A stretch of DNA of 64,000 nucleotides from Imbricaverruca yamaguchii (Eukaryota; Arthropoda; Thecostraca; Neoverrucidae), in contig JAOTOL010001304.1 of the NCBI GenBank assembly GCA_034440575.1, positions 337,501 through 401,500 on the forward strand, given 5' to 3'. Both the position numbers and the translations under genes were made by a program. Positions 5,860 through 57,719 of this stretch are shown here, one piece after another (the stretch's first letter is position 1; the number at the start of each line of letters is the position of its first letter). A model generated the notes under the pieces. The model had not been told where the DNA came from. It searched no databases and saw nothing but the letters and a program-made list of their open reading frames with translations.

Positions 5860-8160
5860 GTTTTGCTGTAGCACACCCACTAGTCAACTGCAACACGCCC
5901 AATGTTTTGCTGTAGCACACCCAGTGGTCTGCAGCAGCACGTCCCTTGGTCTGATCAAATCAGTAGCATGCCTACTGATTTGATGTAGCACGCCCACTGG
6001 TTTGCTGGAACACGCCCACCGTAGCTGGAGCCGTAGCACGCCCACTGGTCTGCTGGACCACGCCCACTGTAGCTGGAGCCGTAGTACACCCACTGGTCTG
6101 TTGGAACACGCCCACTGCAGCTGGAGCCGTAGTGCACCCACTGGTCTGCTGGGACACGCCCGCTGTAGCTGGAGCCGTAGTACACCCACTGGCCTGCTGG
6201 AACACGCCCACTGTAGTTTGAGCACGCCCACTGGTCTGCTGGAACACGCCCACTGTAGCTGGAGCTGTAGCACGCCCACTGTTCTGCTGGAATACGCCCA
6301 CTGTAGCTGGAGCCGTAGCACGCCCACTGGTCTGCTGGAACACGCCCACTGTAGCTGGAGCCGTAGCACGCCCACTGGTCTGCTGGAACACGCCCACTGT
6401 AGCTGGAGCCGTAGCACGCCCACTGGTCTGCTGGAACACGCCCACTGTAGCTGGAGCCGTAGCACGCCCACTGGTCTGCTGTAACACGCCCACTGCAGCT
6501 GGAGCCGTAGCACGCCCACTGGTCTGCTGGAACACGCCCACTGCAGCTGGAGCCGTAGCACGCCCACTGGTCTGCTGGAACACGCCCACTGTAGCTGGAG
6601 CCGTAGCACGCCCACTGGTCTGCTGGAACACGCCCACTGTAGCTGGAGCCGTAGCACGCCCACGGCTGCTGAACACGCCCAGCTGGAGCGTAGCACGCCC
6701 ACTGGTCTGCTGTAACACGCCCAATGTAGCTGGAGCCGTAGCACGCCCACTGGTCGCTGGAACACGCCCACTGTAGCTGGAGCCGTAGTACGCCCACTGG
6801 TCTGCTGGAACACGCCCACTGTAGCTGGAGCGAGCACGCCACTGGTCTGCTGGAACACGCCCACTGTAGCTGGAGCCGTAGCACGCCCACTGGTCGCTGG
6901 AACACGCCCAGGCGTCGTACGCCACTGGTCTGCTGGAACACGCCCACTGTAGCTGGAGTCGTAGTACGCCCACTGGTCTGCTGGAACACGCCCACTGTAG
7001 CTGGAGCCGTAGCACGCCCACTGGTCTGCTGGAACACGCCCACTGTAGCTGGAGCCGTAGCACGCCCACTGGTCTGCTGTAAACGCCCACTGAGCTGGAG
7101 GTAGAGCCACTGGTCTGCTGGAACACGCCCACTGTAGCTGGAGCCGTAGCACGCCCACTGGTCTGCTGGAACACGTCCACTGCAGCTGGAGCCGTAGCAC
7201 GCCCACTGGTCTGCTGTAACACGCCCAATGTAGCTGGAGCCGTAGCACGCCCACTGGTCGCTGGAACACGCCCACTGTAGCTGGAGCCGTCGTACGACCA
7301 CTGGTCTGCTGGAACACGCCCACTGTAGCTGGAGTCGTAGTACGCCCACTGGTCTGCTGTAACACGCCCACTGTAGCTGGAGCCGTAGCACGCCCACTGG
7401 TCGCTGGAACACGCCCACTGTAGCTGGAGCCGTCGTACGACCACTGGTCTGCTGGAACACGCCCACTGTAGCTGGAGTCGTAGTACGCCCACTGGTCTGC
7501 TGGAACACGCCCACTGTAGCTGGAGCCGTAGTACACCCACTGGCCTGCTGGGACACGCCCGCTGTAGCTGGAGCCGTAGTACACCCACTGGCCTGCTGGG
7601 ACACGCCCACTGTAGTTTGAGCACGCCCACTGGTCTGCTGGAACACGCCCACTGTAGCTGGAGCTGTAGCACGCCCACTGTTCTGCTGGAATACGCCCAC
7701 TGTAGCTGGAGCCGTAGCACGCCCACTGGTCTGCTGGAACACGCCCACTGTAGCTGGAGCCGTAGCACGCCCACTGGTCTGCTGGAACACGCCCACTGTA
7801 GCTGGAGCCGTAGCACGCCCACTGGTCTGCTGGAACACGCCCACTGTAGCTGGAGCCGTAGTACATCCACTGGTCTGCTGGAACACGCCCACTGTAGCTG
7901 GAGCCGTCGTACGACCACTGGTCTGCTGGAACACGCCCACTGTAGCTGGAGTCGTAGTACGCCCACTGGTCTGCTGGAACACGCCCACTGTAGCTGGAGC
8001 CGTAGTACGCCCACTGGTCTGCTGGAACACGCCCACTGCAGCTGGAGCCGTAGCACGCCCACTGGTCTGCTGTAACACGCCCACTGTAGCTGGAGCCGTA
8101 GCACGCCCACTAGTCTGCTGGAATACGCCCACTGTAGCTGAAGCCGTAGCACGCCCACTC
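5860..8160. repeat. 48-bp minisatellite, about 2.2 kb, inside intron 1
   Basis: Roughly 45 head-to-tail copies of a 48-bp unit whose plus strand contains CACGCCCACTGGTCTGCTGG followed by CACGCCCACTGTAGCTGGAG. The first ~120 bp (5860-5980) is a diverged edge. The unit is 16 codons long and has no stop in any minus frame, so ORFs of about 660-735 codons appear in all three minus frames. Their peptide units are ADQWACYGSSYSGRVP, GVLRLQLQWACSSRPV and GRATAPATVGVFQQTS. A segment with the marker ctgtagtttgagcacgcc occurs near 6211 and again near 7610, showing a higher-order duplication of about 1.4 kb. Units between about 6660 and 7115 carry many small deletions. Confidence 0.95.
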
Positions 8161-13199: not shown

Positions 13200-14002
13200 A
13201 TGAGCAGCGATTCGTTTGTTTCAGATATCGCCCATGTCAAGCGACATGATCGTACGGAGAACAGTGAAGTGTTGGCGTTCGTGCGGCTGTTTGGCATACC
13301 CAGAACTTTATGTCTTGAAATGGTCCGTATTTACATAATACAGGGACATCTACCAACCCTTGCCTTCCGAGATAATCTTGGCAGCTTTCTGATCAGAGGG
13401 AGAGATGTCCACATCTCGCCACTTTACTCCCAATTGAGACTACAGAGCCGAGAGACTGGAGCTAACACATTGCTTGTCACCAAGCAGATGCAACAGCACC
13501 TGGTTGTTTAGCGTCCGACCATCCAATTGTCCTCCAGGGCAGGTCAAAGGTAAGCGTTTCCCGGCACGGCGGTCGTCGTCATCTTCAACTCCGTGCCGTG
13601 GATCGACCTCTTTTCGGACAGTCGCGAGAAACGCCAGAGGGCACCTTAGGCTCGTAATACAGGTTCCTCAATAATACCAGTTGACCCTCTGAAACCATCG
13701 CGACACATTTTTGAACAGATCGTGAGCCTGGCCGAAATGAATTGCATATCTTCGTGCATAAAAGGTACATTCGGTTTGCCTTCTCACGCTTGCCATCCTA
13801 AAGCAACAACTACAATAAGTCAGGCACTGAAGTAAGTTTATCGATGCATGAGACAGACATGGAGACATCTCTGAACTGTGAAGGTGAACTGAACTGTGAA
13901 GGTGGCATCATCTGAACTGTGAAGGTGGCAACACCTGGTGCTCGGACGACGGCTAAGAACAGACAACGGCCATCGCACTGCTGGCTTAGTCCCAGAACGC
14001 CG
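13200..14002. other. No supported gene
   Basis: A 103-codon ORF at 13200-13511 has an ATG in good context but no recognisable domain and no splice support. The rest shows nothing that I can identify. Confidence 0.4.
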
Positions 14003-14880
14003 ACTCTGATTACACCTCTGAGCTGTACGGACGCTGTGGTGCCGACACCCTGCCGGCTCAATCCCAGAACGCCGACTCTGATTATACCTCTGAGCTGTAC
14101 AGACGCTGTGGCGCCGCCACCCTGCCGGCTCAGTCCCAGAACGCCGACTCTGATTATACCTCTGAGCTGTACAGACGCTGTGGTGCCGACACCCTGCCGC
14201 TCAGTCCCAGAACGCCGACTCTGATTATACCTCTGAGCTGTACAGACGCTGTGGTGCCGACACCCTGCCCGCTAAGTCCCAGAACGCCGACTCTGATTAT
14301 ACCTCTGAGCTGTACAGACGCTGTGGTGCCGACACCCTGCCGGCTCAATCCCACAACGCCGACTCTGATTACACCTCTGAGCTGTACAGACGCTGTGGCG
14401 CCGACACCCTGCCGGCTCAATCCCACAACGCCGACTCTGATTACACCTCTGAGCTGTACAGACGCTGTCGGGCCACCACCCTGCGGCTCAGTCCCACAAC
14501 GCTGACTCTGATTATACCTCTGAGATGTACAGACGCTGTGGTGCCGCCACCCTGCGGCTCAGTCCCAGAACGCCGACTCTGATTATACCTCTGAGCTGTA
14601 CAGACGCTGTAGGGCCGCCACCCTGCGGCTCAGTCCCACAACGCTGACTCTGATTACACCTCTGAGCTGTACAGACGCTGTGGCGCCGACACCCTGCCGG
14701 CTCAATCCCACAACGCCGACTCTGATTACACCTCTGAGCTGTACAGACGTTGAGGTGCCGCCACCCTGCCGGCTAAGTCCCAGAACGCCGACTCTGATTA
14801 TACCTCTGAGCTGTACAGACGCTGTAGGGCCACCACCCTGCCGGCTCAATCCCACAACGCCGACCCTGATTACACCTCTC
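14003..14880. repeat. 72-bp minisatellite, about 12 copies
   Basis: Head-to-tail copies of a ~72-bp unit with landmarks CGCCGACTCTGATTA(T/C)ACC, TCTGAGCTGTACAGACGCTG and CACCCTGCCGGCTCA. Some units have lost one base (71 bp), so frames switch between units. The unit is 24 codons long. The 80-100-codon ORFs on both strands come from the repeat and I do not call them genes. Confidence 0.95.
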
Positions 14881-15689
14881 GGCTATGCAGACGTTGCACG
14901 TTTTCTGTCTTCGTGAGCGGAGAGCATCAAACGATGACTGTGCTCAGTTGACGTCGCCGGGCTCTAATTAGCTATGCACTTGTCTGAGTTTGTAATAACT
15001 GCACCACGGAGAATGAAAGTTTGCCACCGGGAGGTTCTCACTTGCACTGTCCGCACGCTTATGGTAATGAGATTGCCAATGGCGACTGCAGGTGATAATT
15101 CCTTGAGCAAAGTGGAAGTCTCGCCAGCATGCAGGGCCTCGATGCTTTCTGGGGATTATTGTTCAGTGTGCGAATAGAGTTTTGGGTGCATTATTGAAGA
15201 TGGCAGTACACTACCAGGATCATTATTGATGAGGGTAGTGTGTGTGCTCACTGCGGGGAGGGTGAAGTTATGAAAGAGTTATTGAGAATGTCAATGTTGT
15301 TTTGCTTACATATTTGTTTGGTTTTCAAGCAGCGCATGTGAACTTCTCATCGGGGCTAGTTGCCCTAGGTCCCTCCAGGACGTTCAAGTGCATCCCATCG
15401 CTCAAGCAGTGTTCTGTTTTCAGCTGATGGCGCCCCTCTCCGAGTAGAAGTGTTGACAAATGCGTCCCTCCAGAACAGCGGCCCCTCCCCCGATCAGAAT
15501 ACATGGATGCACCACTGGTTTGTGAGGGCTGAGAGTCGCTTTACTCTGCGGAAGCCGCATCATTTCGAGTAGATCAACGTGAGTACTGTGACAACTCACT
15601 TCAGTTGTCAAATCCTAGCTATAGTTCATCCCCAAGACGAACAACAAAAAAGTGTGCGCAGAAAGTGCACCGTCGAGCGATACGCCTGG
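14881..15689. other. No supported gene
   Basis: Ordinary sequence between two repeat blocks. Nothing was recognised on either strand. Confidence 0.4.
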
Positions 15690-27690: not shown

Positions 27691-29284
27691 CCGGCCGCCG
27701 GCTGCGTCTACACACCACTCTCACCTGTGTAGCGGACGCCGGTCCAGCAGCAGCAGCGCAGAGCACGTGGTGGGCCGGTGTGCGACGTGTGCGGCGCCGC
27801 CCCTGTCCCACAGCGGTGTGCCGGAGCGCGCCGACCACCGGCCAGCGCCGACCGCCGGCCACCCGTACCCCTTGGGTGAGGACCAGACGACCCGAGCGAA
27901 AGGCAGCCAATGAGAGGCGCCACAGCACCGCCAGGGCGCCGCCGGCCAGAAGGGGCCTCCGCAGAAGCCGACCCGAGACGCAGTTTCACCCGTGCCGTGG
28001 CCGCTGCCGACTCCCTTCAGCCGAGCGTCAGTGTCCCGACACTGCGCACCGTGTATGCATGTGCATGTGCACACGTGCACGCGTGTCCAAGCGTGCTTGC
28101 CACATGTGGTACCGCGCGATACAATTTGTGATTGAATCTTCGAGTGGCTGAGGGCATACATGATGCCTGGCTGATATACGTATGGCTTGGAATGACTGAG
28201 GGTCTGCATCATACCTGGCTGATAGGCACGTGACTGCACATAATTAGTTGAGAAAGTGGAAGTGGATTTATAAAACAAGCGACATGCGTTGCTATTTAAT
28301 ATTTTCCACTCCGACAAGACGTTTTAGAAACCGGGCACGCAAGTGATTAATGCAACATAGAATATACAAATGCAATGACACCTGAGCTCATTGATAAATT
28401 TCGCACCAGCCACATACAATGTGTGGCTACAACATGTACACAGTAGAGCTCTACAGCGCTTACATATTGCTCCACCTGCTCATGAAGAATTACTTGTCCT
28501 ACAGAAGATTGTCGCTATAGAAACGCCCGGAAGGTACTTATTGGCGGCATATTTTGCAATGAACGAATGCATCGGCGCAAAGATGAGTATTGCATTGGAT
28601 GAACGTGTTAACTGGTATGCTACTCATTACGATTGACACATACTCAAATTATGTTGACTGACAAGCCGGTGTTCTGTGCCATGCGATATCCCACTCCGGA
28701 ACAGTAGAGTGCACTCGGACGTCTTCTGGACAATTTATATTTCAATAGGGCTCCAAAGTCAGTGGGGACTCCCACAGTTAACTGATAAACATTTGGAACC
28801 GCTCTCGACCGGGCTCACACTTTTGAACGCTTGGAAAACAACAAGATTCATTGAAACTACTTCGCACCGGAGGACACGGCAGTATTGATCGGTAGAGGGT
28901 AGGGGGAGTGTGGGGGTGCACCGATCGAGAAGGCAGGACTTGAAAACTTTGGAAGAAGAAAAAAATTAGTGAAAAGGGTAGAATTGAAATTTGTCCAAGA
29001 GGAACACCTTTCACTGAAAATTCCGTTAGTGGGCGCGCTCACGTGTTTCGGGGTGTACTCACAATGAAGCAGTTTGAGCAAGGTGCAGTTGGAACTTCCA
29101 GATCTGGAATGGAATACCGATGGGGCACTGTGTCCCAACTGGGGGAAGCACATGTTCCCATTGTCCAATCAAGGTCTTCCGCTTCGATGTAGTTTATCGC
29201 ACAGGGGTGATAGGGTTGAAGTGCCTATATCCACGATGTTGCCTTCCTTGTATAAAAGCAAGCGGTATTTTTGTGTGGAATCGC
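27691..29284. other. CpG-rich then ordinary sequence, no defended gene
   Basis: 27691-28100 is GC- and CpG-rich and opens several Arg/Pro/Ala-rich ORFs on both strands, none with a recognisable domain. 28100-29284 shows nothing that I can identify; part of it may be further decayed LINE, since a LINE ORF1 fragment begins just to the right. Confidence 0.35.
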
Positions 29285-29505
29285 TCAGAATATGTTCGAT
29301 TAGATAAATCCCCCATTCGGTTCACTTCACTCGATGCCGGAATATACATTACTCCCTCTAACCTATCCCCAACATCCTCTACAAGAGCACCTGGGAAGCA
29401 AACACGAGTCCGTCCGCTGGGGTTCCTACTACAGAACGAGCGTTCTATATACCTAACTCTCGAGTCCCCTATGACTAAAACCTCCCTCTCTGTCTCTATA
29501 TTGAG
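29285..29505 (-). pseudogene. LINE ORF1 esterase-domain fragment (CR1-like), downstream half
   Basis: The minus strand reads EVLVIGDSRVRYIERSFCSR, then RTRVCFPGALVEDVGDRLEG. This matches the SGNH/GDSL-esterase-like domain of CR1-type LINE ORF1 proteins (VLV.GDS.VR...FC....R..VCFPGA.VEDV). The fragment is cut off upstream exactly at the left end of the transposon (29508). The missing upstream half of the same ORF1, in the same orientation, is on the far side at 34483-34900. Further downstream (below 29285) the reading frame becomes unrecognisable. Confidence 0.7.
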
Positions 29506-29507
29506 TA

Positions 29508-29888
29508 GGCTGGTCGGGTTTGCGTTTTTTATCTGGAAAATGCACTAGATCGCCCCCTAGTTTATGCATTTTGGGCGCTGAGCGCGATGCGCCCATCAAA
29601 ATTCCAAATTTCGAAAAACTTTTGACCGCGACGCCCGCTCAAAGGCTTCGGCGATTTTGCAAATTCGCCTTCTTCGGCTCATTATTCCGAAAGTTGTGAT
29701 AGGAAATAGGAAAAGCAGCATGGACAAGCTGAACCAGGTATATTTCATAAGATATTCGCACAAACCAGCGGCGTTCACTCCACTTACATTATGCAAAAAC
29801 ATTGTGTCCGTACTATTTCCCAATTTCACGACCTACTTCAGCACGCCACCCATAGATGGCGTTGGTGGCGATCGCGTATGTTTCATCG
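29508..29888. repeat. Left long terminal inverted repeat
   Basis: Reverse-complement match to 34094-34480 over about 380 bp. By eye it has a scatter of mismatches and several small indels. Shared blocks include GCGCTGAGCGCGATGCGC, CCGCGACGCCCGCTCAAAGG, CAGCATGGACAAGCTGAACC and CACGCCACCCATAGATGGCG. Confidence 0.9.
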
Positions 29889-30152
29889 CTGGAGGGTGCC
29901 TCTCCAGAAGGTCGCCACTTTTCATCGGGGTGGGTGTGAGGTGGGGCAGCTCCCCTCCGCCGTTGCCCCTCCCCGGGATCTGCATCTGATAGAACAATTC
30001 CAGTGTTTACACTACATGTTTCAAATTAATTAATCAACAAGCAATCATTACCACAGGTCTGAGGCCCATTACTAATTACAAACACACAAGCCAATCGAAC
30101 AAAACCCAACCACTGCCGAAATGACGCCATCTCATCAGACTCGCCACATTCA

Positions 30153-31586
30153 TCAGTCTGAAGCCACTGACCCTGTCACAGACGCTCTATCCCTGCTTCG
30201 TCTGGTCTTCGAGCTGGTCTGCTGGCCCATGAAGCGGCGCCGGAAGGCCACCTTATTTAGGCTGTGACCGTCTTGTCTCTCCGCGCCCACGACGGCCGCT
30301 GCGGCCTCGGTCGTCAGCTTGACGACGCGCTCGGTGGACTGGGTGTGGCAGGGCACCCCCGTCCGGAGCGGCTCGTCCAGGAGCCGGCCTAGCTCGTCTT
30401 CAGTGAGAGGACGGACACAAGGTGGCTCGATGTCGGCCTCCCGAGCATACTGGTTGATGTTCACCAGCTCCGTGTACTGGCGTGCAGTCACGTTGATCGT
30501 TGAGCCTTGCACCCGGAACTGGCGGACTGGTCCGGGCTGCCGGCACTCTCTGACCTCGCGCACCATCTGCACGGCCCTCGCCCTGAGCTTCTGGCGCTCG
30601 TCACCCAGCATCGACAGCACCACGTTCTCTGGGTGGGACATCAGGGCATTCCCGCACAGGCGTTCCTGCACGGTTTCCAGGTCGGCGCCGCTCAAGTGCC
30701 GCTGCTGCCATTGCAGCTGATCAAACAGATGGCGGGGCGCTTCCACCAGGTCCGGTCTGGACTTAATGGTCATGACTGTGGGGACGTACACGGCCACGAT
30801 GTATAGGGCCAGGGTCGTTAGCTGGTCGCCGGGGCTCTGCTGGGACATATATACCCGCAGCAGCCGGCTCTGCGCCGTGAACCACTGTGCCAAGTTGAGC
30901 TGGCCGTGGATCCGGTGCGCCACTAGGCTGCCATCGCCGGACGCCGCGCACTTTGCACACTGGTAGAGCAGCCGCAGCTCTGAGCTCAGCGACTGCTCCA
31001 CATCAGCCGGCAGGAGCGGTAGCTCGGCGGAGGCCAGGGGCTGGAACTCCACCAATGGCAGCTCATGCACCGCGTCCGCCACCATCTGGCCGATTGGCCC
31101 TTCGAACGTACTTTTGGAAGTAGTGCGGTCATCCAGGGCGCGGAACAGGGCCCGGTACGGCAACTCCGCTTGGTGGCAGAGGCCTACCATTCTGGTGAGT
31201 GGCCGGCCCAGGAGTGCCTCCAGCTTGGCCATCCAGCCGCCGCTGTACCCCACCACCGAGTTGGTCCCATCCCCTCCCGCAATGTGCACCTTGGCCAGGT
31301 CGATGCCCCGCTCCCCGAGGAAGCTGGCGAGCTGATCCGCCAGCGCCTGACCTGTGTGTCGGCCACTGCAGCTGAAGTGGCCGACAAAGACATCGCCGGG
31401 ATGCATGTTGGCAGAGATGTTGTGTATCTTCAGCGGAGCACCGTGCCCCTGGCCGCGTGTCAGATCATTTCTGCCATCGCAGAACATTGCAGTACAGTAT
31501 GATGCGCTAGCACTTATCTCCCGCACCTTCTCCCGCCTGCTCTTCTCTAAAGCTATCTGCACTTTTGACCTCGGAATCTGTGCGTT
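30153..31586 (-). CDS. Transposase-like protein, C-terminal part
   Basis: About 475 codons ending at a stop at 30153. In order: RSKVQIALEKSRREKVREIS, then CTAMFCDGRNDL, VFVGHFSCSGRHTGQAL, HIAGGDGTNSVVGYSGGWMA, GLCHQAELPYRALFRALDD and STFEGPIGQMV, followed by a mostly helical-looking C-terminus. From memory these match a large invertebrate family (DGRKD...; ..GCDGT..N.G..GG..; LHANELPLRHLF..LDG.T.GP..F.G.IG). D of DGR, D of GGDGT and E of AELP are conserved acidic positions spaced like a DDE/RNase-H-fold transposase; the catalytic role is inference. The 5' edge is the 14-G homopolymer at 31587-31600, across which the frame shifts. It lies between inverted repeats, so it is the likely transposase. 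Confidence 0.7.
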   Translation of the reverse strand, partial: NAQIPRSKVQIALEKSRREKVREISASASYCTAMFCDGRNDLTRGQGHGAPLKIHNISANMHPGDVFVGHFSCSGRHTGQALADQLASFLGERGIDLAKVHIAGGDGTNSVVGYSGGWMAKLEALLGRPLTRMVGLCHQAELPYRALFRALDDRTTSKSTFEGPIGQMVADAVHELPLVEFQPLASAELPLLPADVEQSLSSELRLLYQCAKCAASGDGSLVAHRIHGQLNLAQWFTAQSRLLRVYMSQQSPGDQLTTLALYIVAVYVPTVMTIKSRPDLVEAPRHLFDQLQWQQRHLSGADLETVQERLCGNALMSHPENVVLSMLGDERQKLRARAVQMVREVRECRQPGPVRQFRVQGSTINVTARQYTELVNINQYAREADIEPPCVRPLTEDELGRLLDEPLRTGVPCHTQSTERVVKLTTEAAAAVVGAERQDGHSLNKVAFRRRFMGQQTSSKTRRSRDRASVTGSVASD

Positions 31587-31600
31587 CCCCCCCCCCCCCC
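31587..31600. repeat. Poly-C/G 14-mer at a frameshift
   Basis: Fourteen C on the plus strand. The conserved coding sequence changes frame across this run, so it is either a genuine inactivating indel or a homopolymer length error. Confidence 0.8.
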
Positions 31601-31880
31601 GCTACAGCATAGGCCAAAACGATTTTGGATACTTTCCGTGATCCCATATCACAGGCATCGGCAGCCTCAGACATTAGCGATAAAGATGTCTCTACCCTCC
31701 TTTTATTGTGCCAGCGCGCGAGAACAAAGTCCGGGTCGCTTTCACCGCCACTCTCACTCCTGCTCTCAGAATCACTACAGTCTGGTAGACTAGTGGAGGC
31801 TGAGGGAGTGCGAGTGACGGCGATGCTAGAGGCGGAAGCACCAGAATTGACATCGCTGGAGGTATCAACGACGACGGCAG
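31601..31880 (-). CDS. Transposase-like protein, middle part (frameshifted)
   Basis: A separate frame from the C-terminal part. It carries a Ser/Asp/Glu-rich linker (DSESRSESGGESDPDF), then ARWHNKRRVETSLSL and ACDMGSRKVSKIVLAYAV. In recalled relatives a similar block (two- or three-helix segment with ..VSDR.AA.I..A) directly precedes the RSKV/RRER segment seen at the start of the C-terminal part. This supports one protein broken by the poly-G indel. The upstream boundary is uncertain: a ctccag acceptor-like site lies near 31860-31870, but the frame stays open to about 31953. Confidence 0.5.
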
Positions 31881-32899
31881 CGGTGCAGGAATAATGATCC
31901 GAGACAAAGAGCGAATAGGGTTTACCAGCATGGTGAGGAGAAGAAACGGTCACCTTGGACAGCTAATCAGTTACAGAAAACGTCCCACTTTGCATTTGTA
32001 CAGTTGGAATGAGAAGCTATTGGGTATGTTTCCAGGCAATACATTTATATCAGGCATGCAAACAGGGAATCTGGTGCCACCTGTCCAAGGTTCCGGCAGC
32101 TGTGGATGCGGGAAGGGGAAGAGGAGCGCCTTCAGCGGCGGCGCAGGACGCCCAGACCCAGCTGGTGCGGCAGCCACCGCGCCGGACGGGCGAGGAGCCG
32201 CCGAGGAGCCGGCAGCAGCGGCGGCGGCGTGGTAGGTCCCGGCTGAAGTGTGGACAGCTGCCACACGAACCGAAAGAAGAACGCCTGAAGCTCTGGCAGC
32301 GGCGACGGCAGCGGCACAGAGTGGGTGACCGGAGGCATCGAGCAAGGGGTGCTTATAACATTGGATAGGGTGGGTGACCTGAGGCAGGGAGCAAGGGGTG
32401 TTTACGAGATTGGATATCGTTCCAACAACATACTTCTTCACGAGGCATTAAATCTAGGGAGCATGCAATGCAGTGATTATGTCTTTCACGGACCTGAGGT
32501 GCCGGCAGCTGCGGATACGGAGACGGGAAGAGGAGCGCCTTCAACGGCGGCGGCACGAGATGTCGAAGCTGCTGTACGCTTCGGGGGATGAGCTGCCGAG
32601 GGCCCAGCAGCGACGGCGATGGGCGTGCGGGCCGCGCGAGGAGCCGCTGAAGGCCAATTGGCGGCAGCGGCGGCGGCGCGGGAGAGGCGACCTGAGGTGG
32701 GTTAGGGAGCATCAGTTGGTTTGAAGCAGTCAGGAGAGGTAATGTCGCCCTTATAATGTAATGTAGCGACAATCTCATGCATGCCAATGCCAATGAAGTA
32801 ATCGATGACACGGCCCTGAGGCGTGGGCAGCCGTTGGGACGTGGCGAGGCTCGTCGTACGGTCCGGCGACGGCGGCGGCGGCAGTGACGGTGGCAGCTC
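31881..32899 (-). other. Probable intron of the transposase gene with duplicated GC-rich blocks
   Basis: Separates the N-terminal and middle coding parts. It contains two diverged copies of a ~200-bp GC-rich block (about 32080-32250 and 32495-32700), sharing GCGGGAAGGGGAAGAGGAGC or ACGGGAAGAGGAGC and CGCCTTCA(g/a)CGGCGGC. It also has a ~50-bp tandem duplication with GAGCAAGGGGTG at about 32322-32420. I found no convincing splice pair, so exon borders here are not defined. Confidence 0.45.
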
Positions 32900-33540
32900 T
32901 GCTGGCTTGACGAGCCTGTCGCTTGGCCCGCTCATCTCTTCTGTGCCAGCGCCCCGTCGTCTGCTGGTCGACCCCACCAATGTGGCGTTTCCTGGGGCCA
33001 CGCCGGTCGGCCAGAAACTCTCTGTCATTGGCAAGCTCTGGCTGGCGGGCTGTGCTCGAAATGTCGAAGAGTTCACCGAAGTCGGAGACAGCAGCAGTTG
33101 TTAAACGGGCTGTAAGAGCAGGATGCTGTTTCTTCGAGGTTTTTCCGACGCCCTCTTTTCTTTCCCACAGCTGCTTCACCGTTTCCAGAACACGTGGCAT
33201 CGGCCTTTTCGGTAGTGAAGCCCTGTCCCAGAGTAACAATATCTCATCTGTCACTTGCTGTATGCACTCTTTCATTGGTACATGCTTTTCATCTGTGGAC
33301 ATCTCCTCCATCTTCTCCAATCTGACCATCATCAAGCGGCCGATGACGTCGGCCATGGTTGGAAGCTGGCTTCCAGGCAAGCGACGAGGCGTTATCCCAA
33401 ACTGAGGATGAGGTTCCTTCATTTTCTTTCTAAATGCTTGTCCTTCCATCGTTGGCAACGCCTTTCGGAGACGATTTAAACCGGAATGAAGACGTGCCGA
33501 TACAGATAGCGAGATTTTTGACTGGCTAATGTCACGATCA
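32900..33540 (-). CDS. Transposase-like protein, N-terminal part
   Basis: Starts after a strong acceptor (tttttgtttgttccag, AG at 33542-33541). It reads HSGLNRLRKALPTMEG, HPQFGITPRRLPGSQLPTMA, DVIGRLMMVRLEKM, VTDEILLLWDRASLP, FGELFDISS and DREFLADRRGPRKRHIGGVD. The block VIGR...., helix with LW, LFDI and DREFL.D.RGPRK..IG.VD is, from memory, the conserved N-terminal half of the same family as the 30.1-31.6 kb part. The frame runs on as an Arg/Ala-rich tail to 32775; the true donor is unclear, so the 3' edge is approximate. The upstream exon is uncertain: see the entry at 33825-33905. Confidence 0.6.
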
Positions 33541-33824
33541 CTGGAACAAACAAAAATACAGCAGGTAAGTATTAAAAATAGCATTGGATGATGAAATATA
33601 TTTAATGTTGAGCATAAAACGTACTTTGGTAGATAATTACTCGCGTAAAATTCAATACTTTTTCCACGATTCAACGTGAAAGTAATCCCAAATTAACATT
33701 TCTCCTCAGTCTAACTGATCGATAGCTACCGTAGCTATGATAAGCTGCCATGAAATTTCAAACGGACCCAGTGAACCTATAATGGTGATGGTTGTGGTGA
33801 GCCGATTATTTGATATATTATCAC

Positions 33825-33905
33825 CTGTAATGCATTGTGATTGTAAAATTGCTTAATAGTTGCAGCACTCTCAAGAGATGGTTCCTTGAAATCAGCGTCA
33901 CTCAT
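33825..33905 (-). CDS. Possible first exon of the transposase gene
   Basis: ATG at 33905, 27 codons (MSDADFKEPSLESAATIKQF...) to a good donor ACAG|GTGATA at 33825/33824. It lies just inside the right inverted repeat and in the right direction. Its exit phase (0) does not match the acceptor at 33541, which needs phase 2, so another small exon, an indel or a wrong call must be assumed. Confidence 0.25.
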
Positions 33906-34093
33906 CACTGGCCTCACTGGCAGATCTAGCCGGTTATTTGGGGGGGGGGGGGGGGCAAACGGTAGTATTTATGGGGGCAAACAGCTACAAATAGCCATAT
34001 TGACTATTTTCGGGGCGTTTGGGGGCAAATGGCTTTGGGGGCACTGGCCCTTGTCCCCCTTAAATTCGCCCCTGCACTCCATTGTCAATGTCC

Positions 34094-34480
34094 GTGTGAT
34101 GGAACACACGGGATCGCCACTAACGCCATCTATGGGTGGCGTGTTGAAGTAGGCCGTACAATTTGGAACTAGTACGGATACAGTGTTTTTGCAGATAAGT
34201 AAATGGAGTGAAAGCCGCTGGTTTGTGCGAATATCTTAAGAAATAGACCTGGTTCAGCTTGTCCATGCTGCTTTACCCATTTCCTGTCACAACTTTCGGC
34301 ATAATGAGCCGAAAAAGGCGAATTTGCGAAATCGCCGAAACCTTTGAGCGGGCGTCGCGGTCAAGTTTTTCGAAATTTGGGATTTTGATGAGCGCATCGC
34401 GCTCAGCGCCCAAAAAGGCATACACTAGGGGGCGACCTAGTGCATTTTCGGGAAGGAAAAAAACGCAAACCGGACCAGCC
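34094..34480. repeat. Right long terminal inverted repeat
   Basis: Inverted counterpart of 29508-29888. Its outer end is ...CCGGACCAGCC, followed by TA. Confidence 0.9.
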
Positions 34481-34482
34481 TA

Positions 34483-34900
34483 ATATTCAGCTACCTGGTC
34501 ATGCCTACCTTCATCTCTAGCAGCATTACTCTCCGTTTCTAGAAACCTCAAACCAAGAAACTTACCATAGAAACCTCTCACACTTTAAACCAATTATTAA
34601 TTTCAAAGCCTGTTTCAATTTTCCTTGAAGCTAGTCTGGTGCTCCTTCGTCTGGTTACTTTCCACTCTCTAGTTGCGAAGCAACTCGTCGCGCCGTACGA
34701 GGTATTGCAATGCGGCGGACACGATAGGCAAGTTCTACCCTGCATCCAACACTGCAACAACAACCTTCCCATGTCGTGAGCAGGTAGGCCAGCTACCCCT
34801 GATCCATCCGTCCGCTCAGTTTTATTGTGGTTGTCTGGTCCTCTCGGCTCGTCCCGCGCGGTTGGTGGAGTCCTCGAGGCTGAGGTCCCCCGTCGCACGG
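34483..34900 (-). pseudogene. LINE ORF1 fragment (CR1-like), upstream half
   Basis: The minus strand reads CWMQGRTCLSCPPHCNTSYG, then SCFATREWKVTRRRSTRLAS and KIETGFEINNWFKV, followed by a decayed linker (LETESNAARDEGRHDQVAEY) up to the right end of the transposon. A Cys-rich segment, then W(k)V and a sNRF-like motif before the GDS esterase domain is the order in CR1-type ORF1 proteins (recalled). The esterase domain follows at 29505 once the transposon is removed. Confidence 0.6.
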
Positions 34901-48605: not shown

Positions 48606-48936
48606 GAATCACTTTGAGGTGAAGTGAAGGTTCTGCCTATTCAGAAAAAGTTGTCTTGTTTCATTTGTGTTTTAGTGCCAATGCGATCCGGTATTATTGT
48701 AGCGGCTTGAGTGGCTGCTGTCGTGTCCGTTGGCGAGCTCCAAATATCCATCATTACTTGTTGGCACGTATATCCGGCGGCGATAACGAGAACCACAGCG
48801 AGAGAGCGAGTGCAATTTGCATGGCACGTTATATACAGTACCCGCCGACGTGTCAAAGTGCTGTTCCGCCGCGGCGCCCCGCAAGCATGCGTAAACGACC
48901 TGCGCGAGGTCACGGGCGATACTGGCAAGCACTACA
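48606..48936. other. GC-rich island beside the LINE array, no defended gene
   Basis: A minus-strand ORF (48641-48928) contains a short hydrophobic stretch (LAVVLVIAAG), but no domain, start context or splice partner convinced me. Confidence 0.35.
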
Positions 48937-49395
48937 ACCACACACAAACCACACCCTGCCCACTTTCACAATCAGACTACTACCCCACAATACGCCAGGC
49001 AATCAACAAAGACATCCAGCAAACATGGGACACAACAATCACGCAACTACACGAAATACACCCAAAACACGAACTCTGGCACACCATCAACCAAAACACT
49101 AGACAAAAAGAACGCACACTAACTCGATTACGTCTCGGACACACTGCACTCACGCACTCCTATCTCTTACAACAACGCCCACGACCACAATGCACAACAT
49201 GTCAGCGAACACTCACAATTAAACACATACTCATACACTGCACCAAATACAACACAGAAAGACAACCCATCACAAATTGCTGCAACATGAACAACATCCC
49301 ACTAAACATCACGCCACTTCTCAACGATGACCATCCAACATTACACGAGCACCTCTTCCACTTTTTCTCTATCACACGCCTGATCCACGAACTAT
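48937..49395 (+). mobile_element. I-clade-like LINE, copy 1: 3' end only
   Basis: Begins abruptly near ACCACACACAAACCACACCC and matches the 3' end of copy 2 (52672-53131) closely. It encodes DYYPTIRQAINKDIQQTW, RTLTRLRLGHTALTHSYLLQ and a CCHC zinc knuckle (CTTCQRTLTIKHILIHC), ending RLIHEL and a stop. Unlike copy 2 it is open throughout this part, so it is less decayed. Confidence 0.85.
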
Positions 49396-49545
49396 GAGAA
49401 GAAAAAAGAAAAAAGAGAGAAAAATGAAAAGATATGTTAGAAAAGAAAACAAGAAAATCAAAAAAATGGGAAAAAATGACAAGATATGTTAAAAAAGAAA
49501 AACAGAAAATCAATTTTAAAAAAAGAAAAAGAATAAAAAAAACTA
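49396..49545 (+). repeat. A-rich tail of LINE copy 1
   Basis: Adenine-rich GAAAAAA-type sequence containing two AAAAGATATGTTA or CAAGATATGTTA words. It is directly followed by the 5' end of copy 2. Confidence 0.8.
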
Positions 49546-49979
49546 ACCCCACGTGATATTTACGAACTGCTAACGTTCTTGCAATGTAAAATCAATACTG
49601 GCGATGACCCGACCCAACCCTCCAACTACACCCCGCCCCATGGCACCGACCGGACTGGCAAACGCTATTCTTCTGCACCAGCTCAGCTTCGACTACTACC
49701 TCATCTGCCTGCAAGACGTCTCAACTTCTACTCCCTCTACGCGCCATTCTTCAAGTCGTCTCAACTCTCTCACAACTCGCCTCTACAAGACTTCTTCGCT
49801 TCCTCTCAAACCCACCACATTACTCCTCACACCCTTTCACCCCTAACAAATAACAACACAAAATACTGACACCACAAACGCCCCCCCCCCCGGGAACAGC
49901 CGACATCACCCCGCGGTGGCAGGCTGGCAAAACACACATACACACACCAACCGGCTCACCAACCTACCTAGTACCAATC

Positions 49980-51315
49980 AGCTCCCTCCTCCCAACGACC
50001 CCAGATGTCACACTTGCTTCCTCACGTATAGCCCTCACCCTGTCCTGGACATCCGACTCCGACCCACACTTCAGCAACCACGCACCCATCACCATTACCT
50101 TTCACCAAATCCCGACCACTGGCCCACCCAACCCCCAGCCAGGCCGGTGGAACCTCAAAAAAGCATCCTGGACCACATTTTCAGATTCCTTAAGCGCACA
50201 AACAGCACACACTCCACAACACACACCAGAACAGTTTGCGGACATACTCCTCACCACAGCACACGAACACATACCACGAACAAAACCAAGACACCAACAC
50301 AAACCTCGCGCGGCTCCCTGGTGGGGCGAAGTGCCACCGGGCGATCCGCGCGAGGAACCACGCACGCCACAGACATGGAAGACACCACACACTAGAAACT
50401 ATCAGCTTACAAACGACAGAGAGCACTATGCAGACGTACCATTAAACAAGCAAAAAAAGACCTCCTGGAATAAATTTTGCACCCAATTTAACAGATTCAC
50501 ATCTCTCGGCGAACTTTGGACACTCCTCAGAACATTTCAACACAGACAAAGACCGCCATGCAAAGCAATCACACTTAGACACAACAACAACACTGTCACA
50601 GACACACAAACAATAACAAACATTTTCGCACACCACTACCATCTCAGATCGTCTACACTTCCACGAACACCCCGACCTCCAATCAGACACTCACGCCCAC
50701 ACCTATACAACAGCAGATTTACACTGACAGAACTACAATTAGCAATCACACAGGCAGGAAACACAAGTGCAGGACCAGACAACATTAACTATACGTTCTT
50801 CAAACACATACCAATCTCAGCACTCCAAACATTGCTCGACACTTACAACGCCGCATGGACCACACATACATACCCACAATCATGGTTACACGCTTCTCTC
50901 ATAACTATACCAAAACCAAATACGGACTCAACTCTCTGCACTTCCTATCGCCCTATCGCCCTCACCAGCTGCTTCCACAAACTATTCGAACGTCTTGTCA
51001 AAAAGCGCCTTCTCTATATCATCCAAACACAAAAACTAATCTCTCCTATTCAATCGGGTTTTCTTCCTCATCGCTCATGCTTAGATAACCTCACTTACCT
51101 TGTCACACACATCCAGGAAGCGGCGGCAGGGAAACGCTCCACTGTCGCCGTCTTCCTGGACCTCAAACAAGCCTACGACACCATCAACATAACAGCACTA
51201 CTACAACACCTACACAACATAGATATACAGGGCAGATTACAACACTATCTTCACTTCTATCTTCTAAATCGCTCATTTCAAGTCAAAATTGGATCCCATA
51301 TGTTAGAACAAAATT
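49980..51315 (+). pseudogene. LINE copy 2: endonuclease end and N-terminal RT
   Basis: Endonuclease part: DVTLASSRIALTLSW and DPHFSNHAPITITF (the usual SDH is SNH), then GRWNLKKASWTTFSDSL. RT part: SAGPDNINYTFFKHIP, TSYRPIALTSCFHKLFERL, SPIQSGFLPHRSCLDNLTYL and VAVFLDLKQAYDTIN (motif A with catalytic D). A frameshift near 51290-51315 separates it from the next motif. The frame is otherwise open for more than 1.2 kb, so decay is modest. Confidence 0.8.
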
Positions 51316-52430
51316 CCCCACAACCGGATTGATGCAAGGCTCCGTACTTAGCCCCCTACTCTTTATTTTAGGTCTAAATTCAGTTATCCCAGACAACCTT
51401 CCGGCCAAAATTGCAATATATGCTGACGATATAGTTATATGGACATCACACGAAACACCACAAAACGCACTAGGAATACTACAAACCACATTAATACTAC
51501 TACATCGCAAACTCGCCGCCCTAAACCTACACATTACACCACACAAATCAAAATGCATGATTTTCGGCTACCACAAATACACAGACTTACCACCACTAAA
51601 AATAGACCACACTCCCATCCCATTCGTCACCACAACAAAATTTATAGGCATCACTTTAGACCCAAAACTCACTTTCCGGCCACATATCTTAGACATCCAA
51701 AAACGCGCATCAAAAAGAATAAACATCCTTCGAGCACTATCCGGAACAAACTGGGGATCCGACAGAAACATACTTTGAGCTCTTTACAAATCAATCATTC
51801 GGCCAATTTTGGAATACGGATCCCCACTCTTCGAAAATGCGAGTAAATCAAGCCTCAAAATTATAGATTCTCTTCAACGCCAATCTTTACAAATAGCCAC
51901 AGGAGCATACACCACTTCGCCTTCTTTCGCGCTTCACATATATAACCACATACCAGAACTGAAGCACAGACGCACAAAAACACTATTAAGATTACACTAC
52001 AAAACACAACTCATCGCACAACACCCATGCACCCAGGCATTAAAACTCCGCACCGAACGCATACACCAACTCATGAACGCAACACGACTGAAAACTACAA
52101 TAGGCTGCCGCATCCACCAACACGCAAATAGACTACACGTCACACTCCCCACAGCAAAAGCACTCCCACCACCCACTGCATGGTGGAAACACCAATCACC
52201 CAAAACACACCTCCCCATAGACAAGCCAAGGCACAACACCTACACAGACGCAGAAATATACCAACTATTCCTCCACTTCAAAGCTCAATATCCAAACCAC
52301 AACACCATCTACACGGACGGCTCAAAATCACACACCCATCAGACGGGCACAGCGGCGGTGCTGTACCCCAACGCAGCACCGCCGCGGGTCATCCTTCGTG
52401 CCCGTCTGCGTGACACAGCATCCACACGCA
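51316..52430 (+). pseudogene. LINE copy 2: C-terminal RT and start of RNase H
   Basis: GLMQGSVLSPLLFILGLN (motif B), IAIYADDIVIWTSH (motif C with YADD intact), FIGITLDPKLTF, then a single TGA at 51776. It continues through YKSIIRPILEYGSPLFENAS, and ends with the RNase H entry IYTDGSKSHTHQTGTAAVLY. A shift near 52430 leads into the next part. Confidence 0.85.
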
Positions 52431-53131
52431 GCATAATTATTCGCAATCTTCTCGGCATACTGCACCATCTACAACACCAAAATTGAACACAACATCATAG
52501 CCACAGACGCAAAATTAGCATTACAGAGCATAACACCCCACACCAAATACAAACACCCCCTCATACACAAACAACTCACCATACCACAACGGCCAACACT
52601 ACTCTGGATCCCAAGTCACACAAACATACACGGCAACGAACACGCAGACACCGAAGCCAACATAGCCACAATACTACAACAAACCACACCATGCCCACTT
52701 TCATAATCAGACTACTACCCCACAATACGCCAGGCAATCAACAAAGACATTCAACAAACATGGAACACAACAATCACGCCACTACACGAAATACACCCAA
52801 AACACGAACTCTGGCACACCATCAACCAAAACACTAGATAAAAAGAGCGCACACTAACACGATTACGTCTCGGACACACTGCACTCACGCACTCCTACCT
52901 CTTATAACAACTCCCACGACCACAATGCAAAACATGTCAACGAACAGTCACAACTAAACACATACTCATACACTGCACCAAATACAACACCTAAAGACAA
53001 CCCATCACAAATTACTGCAACATGAACAACATCCCACTAAACATCACGACGCTTCTCAACGATGATCATCCAACATTACACGAGCATCTCTTCCACTTCC
53101 TCTCTATCACACGCCTGATCCACGAATTATG
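52431..53131 (+). pseudogene. LINE copy 2: RNase H end and CCHC knuckle
   Basis: FAIFSAYCTIYNTKIEHNII, ATDAKLALQSI, LLWIPSHTNIHGNEHADTEA, then the same C-terminal block as copy 1 but with stops replacing Gln or Arg at several places (for example NTR* and YLL*), and C..C....T..H....C retained. Stops in copy 2 where copy 1 is open show that copy 2's 3' part decayed independently. Confidence 0.8.
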
Positions 53132-53262
53132 AGAGGAAAAAATGAAAAGATATGTTAAAAAAGAAAACCAGAAAATCAAGAAAAAGGGGAAAAAAGAACA
53201 AAAAATGAAAAGATATGTTTAAAAAAAAACAGAAAAGAAAAAAAATAAAAAGAAACAAAAAA
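53132..53262 (+). repeat. A-rich tail of LINE copy 2
   Basis: Same architecture as the copy 1 tail (AAAATGAAAAGATATGTT words in an A-rich run), again directly followed by a LINE 5' end. Confidence 0.8.
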
Positions 53263-53660
53263 CTAACCACACGTCATACTTACTAACTACTAACGTTCTT
53301 GCAATGTAAACTCAAATACTGGCGATGACCCGACCCCAACCTTCCAACTACACCCCACCACATGGCACCGACCGGACTGGCAAACGCTTTTCTTCTGCAC
53401 CAGCTCAGCTCCGACTACAACGTCATCTGCCTGCAAGACGCCTCAACTTCTACTCCATCTACGACCCATTCTTCAAGACGTCTCAACTCTCTCACAACTC
53501 GCCTCTACAAGACAACTTTAATCTTCTTCGCTTCCTCACATCCCCACCACATTACTCCTCATACCCTTTCACCCCTAACAAACAACAACACAAAATACTG
53601 ACACCACAAACGCCCCCTCCCCCGGAAACAGCCGACATCACCACGCGGTGGCAGGCTGGC

Positions 53661-53663
<3 letters not shown>
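53263..53663 (+). mobile_element. I-clade-like LINE, copy 3: 5' end only
   Basis: Matches 49546-49930 from ACTAACCACACGTCAT onward, including ATGACCCGACC, GGCACCGACCGGACTGGCAA and CTGCAAGACG. It ends where it meets the (CA)n tract at the position of the copy 2 sequence AACACACATACACACACC (about 49930). Confidence 0.85.

Positions 53664-53751
<88 letters not shown>
53664..53751. repeat. (CA)n microsatellite grown from a LINE site
   Basis: About 44 CA dinucleotides, starting exactly where copy 2 carries an imperfect (CA) stretch. Confidence 0.95.
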
Positions 53752-53752
<1 letters not shown>

Positions 53753-55181
53753 GGGCATCTCGGCGCAGGCGCATAGTAATGTTCGGCGCGTGACTCATGT
53801 GCTGTCGGAACACGAGTTGCTACATTATATGGGTAATGCAGGCAGTGTATACATACACACATGAATTATCCGCATGTGAATTTCTTTCACTATTTCCATG
53901 GAATCATTTTGAAAATGTACCGTATGTACCGTATTTCGCAATTCGGCGTTCCCACGGCGTGGGACGGCCAACGTTTCCCAAAAAAATTCGTGTTTTCCCA
54001 AAAGTTTCCCCAAAAGTTTAACACTGCGTCTATGACGTTGCATGGAAGAAGTTTACATAAAGAAAATGCAAGCCTCCCCTCTGAAAAAAATTGCGAAAGC
54101 TATGTATTTCACTAAAGTATTTCGATGCTATCTTCGGGCAGGTTTTCCATTCAAACTTACCTGTCGAGGTCCCAAACTCTCTCACTTCACATAGATGTAG
54201 GAGATGAAAATCCTTCCGAAGAGTTGAAAGCCAACACAAATGTTTTGCTCGGGAGAACTAAATGTTTTTTCATTGAAAAAGGGTAGAAGTGCTTATTTCG
54301 TTGGACAAGTAGTTACAGTGATTTAGCTGGCTGACCTCAGTATAGTACGAAGACCTCCTTAGATCCCATCAATTCGGTAAAAGCCCCAAATGTTCGTTAT
54401 CTGTCGGCCACAATTCCGTTGCAGTCGGGTCAACGTGTTGCGCGTGCACGTCACGGGGGTCATGAGGGCACGGATGTCCGGTGAATCACCAACCGCCCAT
54501 AGGAATAGCATGTAAAACTGAGATTTTTCGTTCGGAAAATCACCAATTCTAGCTCTCCCCATCGACCCGATTTAGACCGCCACATCTCAACAACCAATGG
54601 ACCGATCGACACCAAACCAACACCTCAGTGTTGTCACAATTGTCAACATCGCCGTGGCAACCGTTTCCGAGTTATACGCCACGCGAACGCGAGGGAGCGT
54701 GGGAAGCGGAAGCGACCTTTCAGGACGTTTTTCACGATCGGGTCTGGTTCTCGGAAACGGCTAAACTTGGCGACTTGCCGTCACTTTCACCTCATGGCTC
54801 CATGTACCGGGTACAGTTTTCCAACTGACAGATCAGTGGCCGCAGTGTGCGGGCGCCGTCATCGTGACACGGGCTGCACGTGCTTCGGTCCGTGAAAAAG
54901 GCACCGCTTTCCACCGTCTCCACACCACTGTCGAATGACATTTCGCGGAGAAAGTTGTATGCACGGATAGCCCAACTCTGTGATGCTCACAGTTCCTTCG
55001 CATTTTACCCATCGCAAATACTTTAGTTGCAATCGTCGATGACCATAGTCCACACTGTTACCAGACTTCACTTTCGGCAATCTCAAACAGGATACGGGGC
55101 GGGACAGTATCCTGTCACCGTCCAGAGATTGGATCCGACGCAACAGCTTCGTTTTCTGGCGCAGTTTGTTTTCAAAGTTGG
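53752..55181. other. No supported gene
   Basis: Ordinary sequence. Several short ORFs, none with a domain. Confidence 0.4.
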
Positions 55182-55531: not shown

Positions 55532-56003
55532 CCTGGTCCGTCACAGTCCCTGCCACCTGACCAGAGCCAGCCTGGTCCGTCATCCGGGTCGCCTCCTGAT
55601 CCAGATCTTGCCACCGATAAGGGTACGTGGTACAAAGGGGCCACACTCCAGCTGAACTGGCTGACAGAGAACTTCCCATGCTTGAAAGTGACTAAGGTGA
55701 CTTCAGGAAAACGTCAGAGTTCTGTAGTGACGTGCCAGATACGTAAAGACCAGATTCATGTGGCACAGAAGGTCTCGGTGAATGGGCGCGTGTACATCGC
55801 CAATGGAATCATCGTCCATGGTAAGGATCGGCTGAAGCTAGTGGTGGATCACTTGAAGGGACCCGTCCATGAAGCAGCCTCTCAAGCCAAGCGTCTCACT
55901 GAGCAATGGCAAGCTCAAGAGGCAGACCATCCGTGGGTGAGCATTCTGAGCAAGCACCGAGCGGACTTCGTAGAGCTGCTGGTACACCTCGCCAGACGTC
56001 TAC
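55532..56003 (+). pseudogene. hAT transposase, N-terminal zinc-finger part
   Basis: The frame opens after a TAG at 55529-55531 and has no ATG, so a start must lie in an upstream exon or be lost. It reads a Pro/Ser-rich leader, then KGTWYKGATLQLNWLTENFP, SVVTCQIRKDQIHVAQK, VDHLKGPVHEAA and HRADFVELLVHLARR. A W..WL....C..C....G........L..H..S..H..A order is the BED/TTF-like DNA-binding finger of the C17orf113 / KIAA1586 / ZNF862-type hAT proteins (recalled). The second Cys is Arg here (CQIR), which would break the finger. A one-base shift near 55995-56003 joins it to the next frame, giving VYNDSLLETPSAWSW. Confidence 0.75.
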
Positions 56004-57160
56004 AATGATTCGCTGTTGGAAACCCCAAGTGCCTGGTCGTGGCCCGCAAGACCGCTGGCGGTTCTACACAGTCAGCGAGTGATGATGATGATGGCCGAGT
56101 CGACTCCGTACACACCAACACAACCTCCGCCATCTGCACTCTCACACCGGTCGCCGGACATTTACCGAGAGATGCTGGAGATTATCAGTGACCTGGAGAT
56201 CAAGAAGCTCGGTCATGCCATGTCAGAGTGCGTGGCCTACAGCGTTCAAGTTGACGGGTCGGTGGATCGCCAGGCGATTGATAATAAGTTCATCACCGCG
56301 CGTCTCATCCGGGACGACGGTAGTCTTCAGACCGTCATTCTTGGGGTCGAGGAGCCTGAGGGCTCAGGTGCTAGTGGCCTTCTGGAAGCCGTAAAGAACG
56401 GCTTGAAGCGATGTGGGGCGCCTCTCGACAAGCTCGTTGGTGTGACCACTGACGGAGAAACAGCGAACACCGGCCGACACGGGGGGTTGTGGCGCCTCCT
56501 AGCTGACTACGCGCAGCGCCAACTGCTCACATTCTGGTGTGCATGTCACAGATCAGACCTCGCGATGGAGAGCGTCGAGAATACTGTGAAGGAGATCCAG
56601 CACTGGAAGGGAGACCTTCGCGCCGTGGCGACATTCTTCCGAGTGTCGGGAAAGAGGACGGTGCGCCTGAAGAAACACGGTGGCACGGTAGCCTTTCCAG
56701 CGTTTTTCGACGTCCGTTTCTCGCAACATCTGCTCGCCCTCATCACAGCCGTGCTGAAGAACCTGCCAGCATGCCGCGTCGTCTGGGAGGAGATAAGCCA
56801 GTCAGGGAGTGAGAAGAGCAAAGCATCGAAGGCGGAAGCGCGCGGATTCCTGCGCCGCTGGGAAGAAGGGGGAAGGTTGGTGCGTCTCACTCACCTGATG
56901 GGGGACGTAAGCGAAGTCATCACCCACCTCCAGAAGAGACTTCAACGGAGCGACATCATCCTCCCCCAGGCGCTCGAGGCGCGCGACAGCGCCAACATGC
57001 AACTAACAGTGATGATCCATGGCAACCTCCTGGGAGGTCGAGAGGAACAGGCCTTAGACAAGGGCAGGGAGCGGGAAGATCCGAGTCCGAGAAGGCGCGT
57101 CCCAAACGAGAACGTCACGTTTGAGCGCGATTTCAAGGCCTTCAGAGAAGAGGTTCTGCA
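56004..57160 (+). pseudogene. hAT transposase, catalytic core
   Basis: YNDSLLETPSAWSWPARPLA, then CVAYSVQVDGSVDRQAIDNK (first catalytic Asp in the QVDGS motif), LVGVTTDGETANTGRHGGLW (second Asp), TFWCACHRSDLAMESV (hAT CxxH motif) and PAFFDVRFSQHLLALI. This order (D, D, C..H, then a large insertion region) is the RNase-H-fold core of hAT transposases related to human C17orf113/ZNF862. Open for about 385 codons, so not old. A shift near 57160 ends the frame (VLQ / AINIVGQRLDF). Confidence 0.88.
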
Positions 57161-57719
57161 GACGCAATCAACATCGTCGGTCAGCGTCTCGACTTTGAAC
57201 AGGAGGAAGTGACCCAGAGCATGAATCGGATGATGAGGGCTCAGACCACCGAAGAGTTCATCCGTGCCGGGGAGAGCGTGGTCAACGACCTGTTCCTCGA
57301 GAAGGCGACAGAGTTTTCTCTGAACGTCTGCGACAGGTGGCCGGCCATGCAAGCGTTAGGCGGTGCAGAGTACTCGGACGACAGAAAACTGCGAGTCATG
57401 CTGAAAGCATAAACCGGCGTTTGCAAGCAGGTGCTCGCTGCTTTCATCACGCTCACGCCCCCACAGCATGGCCACAGAACGTGCTGTCTCTCACTACAAT
57501 AACCTATGCTCATACAACAGGCTCAGCATGAAGAACGACACGGTGAATGCCCGTATGATCATCGCTCCCAACGGTGTCGGCACGGCTCATTACGATCCTC
57601 GCCCAGCGGTGTGTGCATACCTTGAGGCAAGGGGGCGGCGCATGCGGGTGCCAGATGCAACCACCTACCAGAAGCGTGAGTTTGTCACGAAGTTCTTCCG
57701 GGCGACAGGGAACGTGTAG
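57161..57719 (+). pseudogene. hAT transposase, C-terminal part
   Basis: Two frames. The first reads AINIVGQRLDFEQEEVTQSM, MMRAQTTEEFIRAGESVVND and KLRVMLKA to a stop at 57412. The second reads ATERAVSHYNNLCSYNRLSM, NDTVNARMIIAPNGVG and YQKREFVTKFFRATGNV to a TAG at 57719. The second is the hAT dimerisation segment (S..ER..S..N......R..M....N.R..I..NG) of this family. Total inferred protein length of about 700 residues fits the family. Confidence 0.78.

Follow-up and report, generated by a model that had tools for sequence, protein, structure and literature searches.

A probable decayed DNA transposon with long inverted ends and a divergent hAT-like transposase in Imbricaverruca yamaguchii

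We analysed a stretch of 64,000 nucleotides from contig JAOTOL010001304.1 of Imbricaverruca yamaguchii (positions 337,501 to 401,500 of the forward strand; hereafter, the window). Near its middle lies an element of 4,977 bp with long terminal inverted repeats (TIRs) around a minus-strand gene, flanked by what is presumed to be an 8-bp target-site duplication (TSD). We consider it likely that this element is a decayed autonomous cut-and-paste transposon whose divergent hAT-type transposase worked in a hAT-like manner, a statement that includes the case of a superfamily sister to hAT. The initial annotation of this DNA had described a transposon with long inverted ends around its own transposase gene, and this description is supported, with arms of 383 and 389 bp and the gene between them.

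Inverted ends and presumed target-site duplication

The ends of the element and the sequences next to them are as follows.

29506-29888, plus strand: left terminal inverted repeat, 383 bp, with the tip TAGGCTGGTC
34094-34482, minus strand: right terminal inverted repeat, 389 bp
29498-29505, no strand: presumed 8-bp target-site duplication, left copy (ATATTGAG), which shares 7/8 positions with the right copy and matches nTnnnnAn
34483-34490, no strand: presumed 8-bp target-site duplication, right copy (ATATTCAG)

The inverted repeats proposed initially (29508-29888 and 34094-34480) are real and turned out to be slightly longer. We found that the arms are 89.4% identical over 388 columns (blastn within the window, E about 3e-138), and a global alignment of the two has 347 identical columns, 18 transitions, 15 transversions and 12 gap columns. 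Beyond this pair, no copy of an arm was detected in the window at the E <= 1e-3 cut-off. A search for subterminal repeats within the arm gave no 6-mer above the dinucleotide-shuffle level (3 copies, while 295 of 300 shuffles reached at least 3).

TA is seen at both arm tips, as had been reported for both outer sides. At the left junction ATATTGAG is followed by TAGGCTGGTC, and at the right one GACCAGCCTA is followed by ATATTCAG. The 8-mers directly outside the tip TA match at seven of eight positions, at the exact outer edge. For 400,000 random pairs of 8-mers from the window, the chance of an agreement at 7/8 positions or better was 0.00059; with nine edge offsets allowed, it was 0.0043 (100,000 pairs). 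Both 8-mers have T at position 2 and A at position 7 and so fit nTnnnnAn, which excerpts of two papers give as the target pattern of hobo and Hermes (PMC8961557, PMC10512250). Because the outer 8-mers agree at 7/8 positions and fit this pattern, we place the bounds of the element at 29506-34482 and presume an 8-bp duplication. The one mismatch agrees with the divergence of about 10% between the arms. No empty site was present in the window, where the joined flanks matched only themselves.

Two other readings of these ends were weighed. The initial annotation had taken the TA for a 2-bp target duplication, which would imply a mariner-like integration, and TA does flank both outer sides. TA is, however, self-complementary. 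Finding it on both sides is therefore as compatible with inverted ends as with a duplication, and the two bases may equally be the last two of the inverted ends. Moreover, a TA duplication would make the outer 8-bp near-duplication a matter of chance, and the mariner-like matches of the predicted fold, Metnase (E 0.04) and Mos1 (E 0.08), stood far below Hermes in Foldseek. The TA reading, being unlikely for this element, was set aside in favor of 8 bp since the near-duplication sits outside the TA, and we regard a mariner-like transposon here as very improbable. The case shows that a self-complementary TA at the tips can be mistaken for a target duplication. The arms could also be two independent miniature inverted-repeat transposable elements (MITEs) that happened to flank an unrelated gene, for each of them could in principle move alone. 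Still, taken singly, the arms show no inverted ends (score 3-4, compared to 23 tip-with-tip), and over 31 shifts per arm the best 8-bp duplications for single arms reached 4/8 and 5/8, compared to 7/8 for the outer flanks of the pair. With one outside duplication common to the pair and none per arm, we find the MITE pair scarcely credible and set it aside.

Transposase gene and its probable decay

The minus-strand gene between the arms lies in pieces, as had been claimed, and all four motifs that had been listed for it were found in minus-strand open reading frames (ORFs).

32874-33449, minus strand: N-terminal coding piece, in which the Met at 33449 pairs with the initial Met of the relative P0006
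31837-32873, minus strand: presumed intron, with no match to relatives and with splice sites not fixed
31558-31836, minus strand: upstream coding piece, in a frame other than that of the core; aligns with residues 242-328 of P0008 and 43-118 of P0005
30156-31601, minus strand: transposase core ORF, 482 aa, with a predicted RNase H-like catalytic domain and a helical insertion

Two of the pieces, the N-terminal one (33449-32874) and the core (31577-30228, 54% identity), align in order with P0006 (831 aa). Between them, the third piece (31836-31558) aligns in another frame with P0008 (790 aa); the frame switches in or close to the C run at 31587-31600. The roughly 1 kb that separates the coding pieces is presumably an intron. 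At 32088-32905, inside this presumed intron, we observed G+C-rich imperfect repeats with plus-strand ORFs.

The copy in the window also departs from its relatives at two motifs: the Cys of CxxH is replaced by Gly, the His being kept (VGLCH), and the Arg of RW is replaced by Gln, the Trp being kept (AQWFT). We infer that this copy is probably decayed and now inactive.

Predicted fold and presumed catalytic residues

The initial annotation had found no named superfamily for the gene. A check of the core fold gave a different outcome: both predicted models matched Hermes, a housefly transposase of the hAT superfamily (hobo/Ac/Tam3), above everything else in Foldseek, the helical insertion included. 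In the models, the large helical insertion would sit before the final Glu helix of the RNase H-like core, and such a predicted DDE core with a large helical insertion is like that of Hermes and hAT.

To compare residues across the family, we used an alignment of 23 of the 50 fetched proteins and the window ORF (24 rows; alignment A3). The positions in the window copy are listed below.

31476-31478, minus strand: codon for the first Asp presumed to be catalytic (FCDGRND; CDGR starts at 31481), corresponding to D180 in Hermes; Asp in 24/24 rows
31269-31271, minus strand: codon for the second Asp presumed to be catalytic (GGDGTN; GGDGT starts at 31277), corresponding to D248 in Hermes; Asp in 24/24 rows
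31173-31187, minus strand: CxxH motif region
30876-30890, minus strand: RW motif region
30330-30332, minus strand: codon for the Glu presumed to be catalytic (CHTQSTERVVKL), corresponding to E572 in Hermes; Glu in 19/19 rows with a residue, 5 gaps

This conservation supports the earlier claim of a D-D-E-type transposase. In the CxxH columns, C was present in 23 of the 24 rows and H in all of them. The RW columns had R in 22/24 rows, the other two being a gap and the Gln of the window copy, and W in 24/24, although P0048, a truncated row, is doubtfully aligned at its W. Outside A3, as well as outside the alignment A2, the protein P0016 (FJT64_022706) was without the first Asp; it resembles a fused gene model.

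The key residues of Hermes, as given in an excerpt of PMC6027215, are D180, D248, R318, W319 and E572, and its CxxH contains H268 (excerpt of PMC4763223). In P0006, the corresponding residues are D351, D422, C451/H454, R551-W552 and E751, in the same order. The spacing is similar as well, with 71 residues from D to D compared to 68 in Hermes, and 329 from D to E compared to 324. Judged by order and spacing, D, D, R, W and E are the presumed counterparts of the Hermes residues. One position differs throughout: all 24 rows have an Arg two residues past the first Asp, in the place where Hermes has W182 after D180 (excerpts of PMC4763223, PMC6027215).

Protein family

Searches with three queries returned at least 24 proteins for the core ORF, at least 39 for the alignment A1 and at least 12, query included, for the distant relative P0026; in each of them, scoring was limited to the 7,986-7,998 candidates with the most words in common. 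Relatives with a named organism, among the matches listed, all came from Amphibalanus amphitrite (4/24, 5/39 and 0/12, respectively), and these names by themselves would point to a barnacle as the likely origin of the window. The homologs in this species are LOC122388524, FJT64_007668, FJT64_022706, FJT64_009039 and FJT64_009680, which are 46-70% identical over the listed coverage. These direct homologs are compared here as proteins, and, in agreement with the initial annotation, named members are called just hypothetical or uncharacterised. Uninterrupted relatives (P0006, P0008 and P0011) are 784-831 aa long. The motifs are also kept in P0026 and others, whose identity to the window ORF is just about 30%.

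Rows of the P0026 type that cover A3 columns 161-215 show a cysteine-rich cluster (CxC...HIxCxC...KIP) before a QR motif, and barnacle-type proteins are without it. This difference perhaps reflects a lost or replaced N-terminal zinc site.

Profile and sequence searches led to no known family. Four ORFs of the window had nothing above the Pfam cut-off; one Auxin_canalis match (E 0.0045) was weak, below the cut-off, and was dismissed. Members of A2 and A3 gave only weak scattered Pfam matches, the best being HEAT_2 at 0.0041. Hermes was not matched in the sequence searches of the PDB, one of which was empty while another gave sortase and AP-2 at E >= 0.31. We also looked for the DNA context of relatives. 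Among viral contigs, 67 stretches fitted the A1 pattern and 22 the A3 pattern, and among genome contigs 31 stretches fitted the A3 pattern; none of these was a relative.

Classification of the element

We assign the element most likely to a divergent branch of hAT, not to a named hAT group. This placement and a hAT-like way of working are proposed because the length and pattern of the TSD, the length of the element, the fold and the key residues all agree with hAT, while short TIRs and a Pfam match are lacking. For example, the 8-bp duplication fits nTnnnnAn, the length of 4,977 bp falls in the hAT range of 2.5-5 kb, and the D-D-RW-E and CxxH counterparts stand in the Hermes order. The tip starts with TAG as in hAT, and its first five bases, TAGGC, fit the hAT tip (T/C)A(A/G)NG at 4/5 positions, the fifth base being C here and G in hAT.

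Several observations weigh against this assignment. The TIRs have 383 and 389 bp compared to the usual, though not strict, 10-25 bp in hAT. A hAT profile was matched in Pfam by 0/24 members of A2 and 0/24 members of A3 at E <= 1. The distances from the second Asp to CxxH and to RW are larger than in Hermes, and the model confidence, that of the AlphaFold model included, is low around the presumed catalytic Glu. In addition, the 8-bp duplication has a thin basis in one copy of the element.

Some of the same points would favor a distinct superfamily that is sister to hAT, with the same fold and an 8-bp duplication and with its own protein family, long ends and tip sequence. Besides the TIRs of about 385 bp, the family has, among the matches listed, no Pfam match above the cut-off and no sequence match to Hermes, and its relatives at about 30% identity, P0026 and others, keep the motifs. 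On the other hand, the fold, the order of key residues and the length and pattern of the TSD are those of hAT, and divergence within hAT may account for the rest; we hold a sister superfamily to be possible but rather unlikely. If it exists, the proteins with DGRxD, GGDGTN, CxxHxxEL and HTQSTERAV motifs, which stand without a name in genomes and transcript collections, would be its transposases, and the superfamily would be marked by 8-bp duplications, terminal repeats of several hundred bp and a change from Trp to Arg after the first Asp. This broader proposal, to which we give a similarly small weight, would make it a superfamily overlooked because no Pfam domain model covers it.

Long TIRs are found in other superfamilies too. 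Galileo, of the P superfamily in Drosophila, likewise has long TIRs with 7- or 8-bp TSDs (excerpt of PMC4168063), and the P element transposase was among the fold matches; we nevertheless judge a P-superfamily element very improbable. Mutator-like elements (MULEs) typically have long TIRs as well, with TSDs of 9 nt in grapevine (excerpt of PMC2528002), and CxxH is common to several superfamilies according to an excerpt of PMC4763223. Conversely, the near-duplication here is 8 bp and not 9 bp, no 9-bp duplication with at most one mismatch was present at nine edge offsets, and no MULE domain was among the Pfam matches. A MULE transposase was also absent from the fold matches listed, an absence that carries little weight. 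A Mutator-like origin appears improbable to about the same degree as a P-type one.

By analogy with Hermes, from which the chemistry is inferred, a divergent hAT-type transposase would nick at the element tips (TAGGCTGG) and form hairpins on the flanking DNA, aided by the CxxH and W residues. An excerpt of PMC4763223 reports that CxxH matters for hairpins in Kat1 and Hermes. Joining of the freed 3' ends to a new target at points separated by 8 bp would then give the 8-bp duplication, and the long ends may hold binding sites for the transposase.

The outcome is a likely identification of an unnamed family, with no new mechanism. Fold gives an identity to a family outside Pfam, which may allow gene models of this kind annotated as 'uncharacterised' to be identified as transposases or remnants of them. 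The element itself would be one of hAT type whose ends exceed the usual length more than tenfold. In the literature searched, no hAT element with long TIRs and a transposase of this family was described, though Repbase or Dfam may contain one.

Other features of the window

A 412-aa ORF on the plus strand at 55974-57212, with TTDGETANTGRHGG...CACH, aligns with the transposase family around the second Asp and CxxH. For one of the 50 query proteins tblastn gave E 1.5e-4, and hhalign gave P 1.2e-4 (probability 55.6); the ORF had no Pfam match. We take it to resemble a hAT-derived gene and do not count it as proof.

Beside the insertion, a minus-strand ORF with VLVIGDSRVRYIERSFCSRNPSGRTRVCFPGA at 29194-29544 presumably resembles part of a retrotransposon ORF1. 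Two tandem arrays were also observed: a long one at 5985-8159, open in several frames, whose units of about 48 bp are about 90% alike, and another at 13978-14896, with a unit of about 72 bp. Long plus-strand ORFs span 48711-53861, where 48937-49947 and 52673-53679 are two copies of a repeat, 89% identical; we assume that these ORFs resemble parts of a LINE-type retrotransposon.
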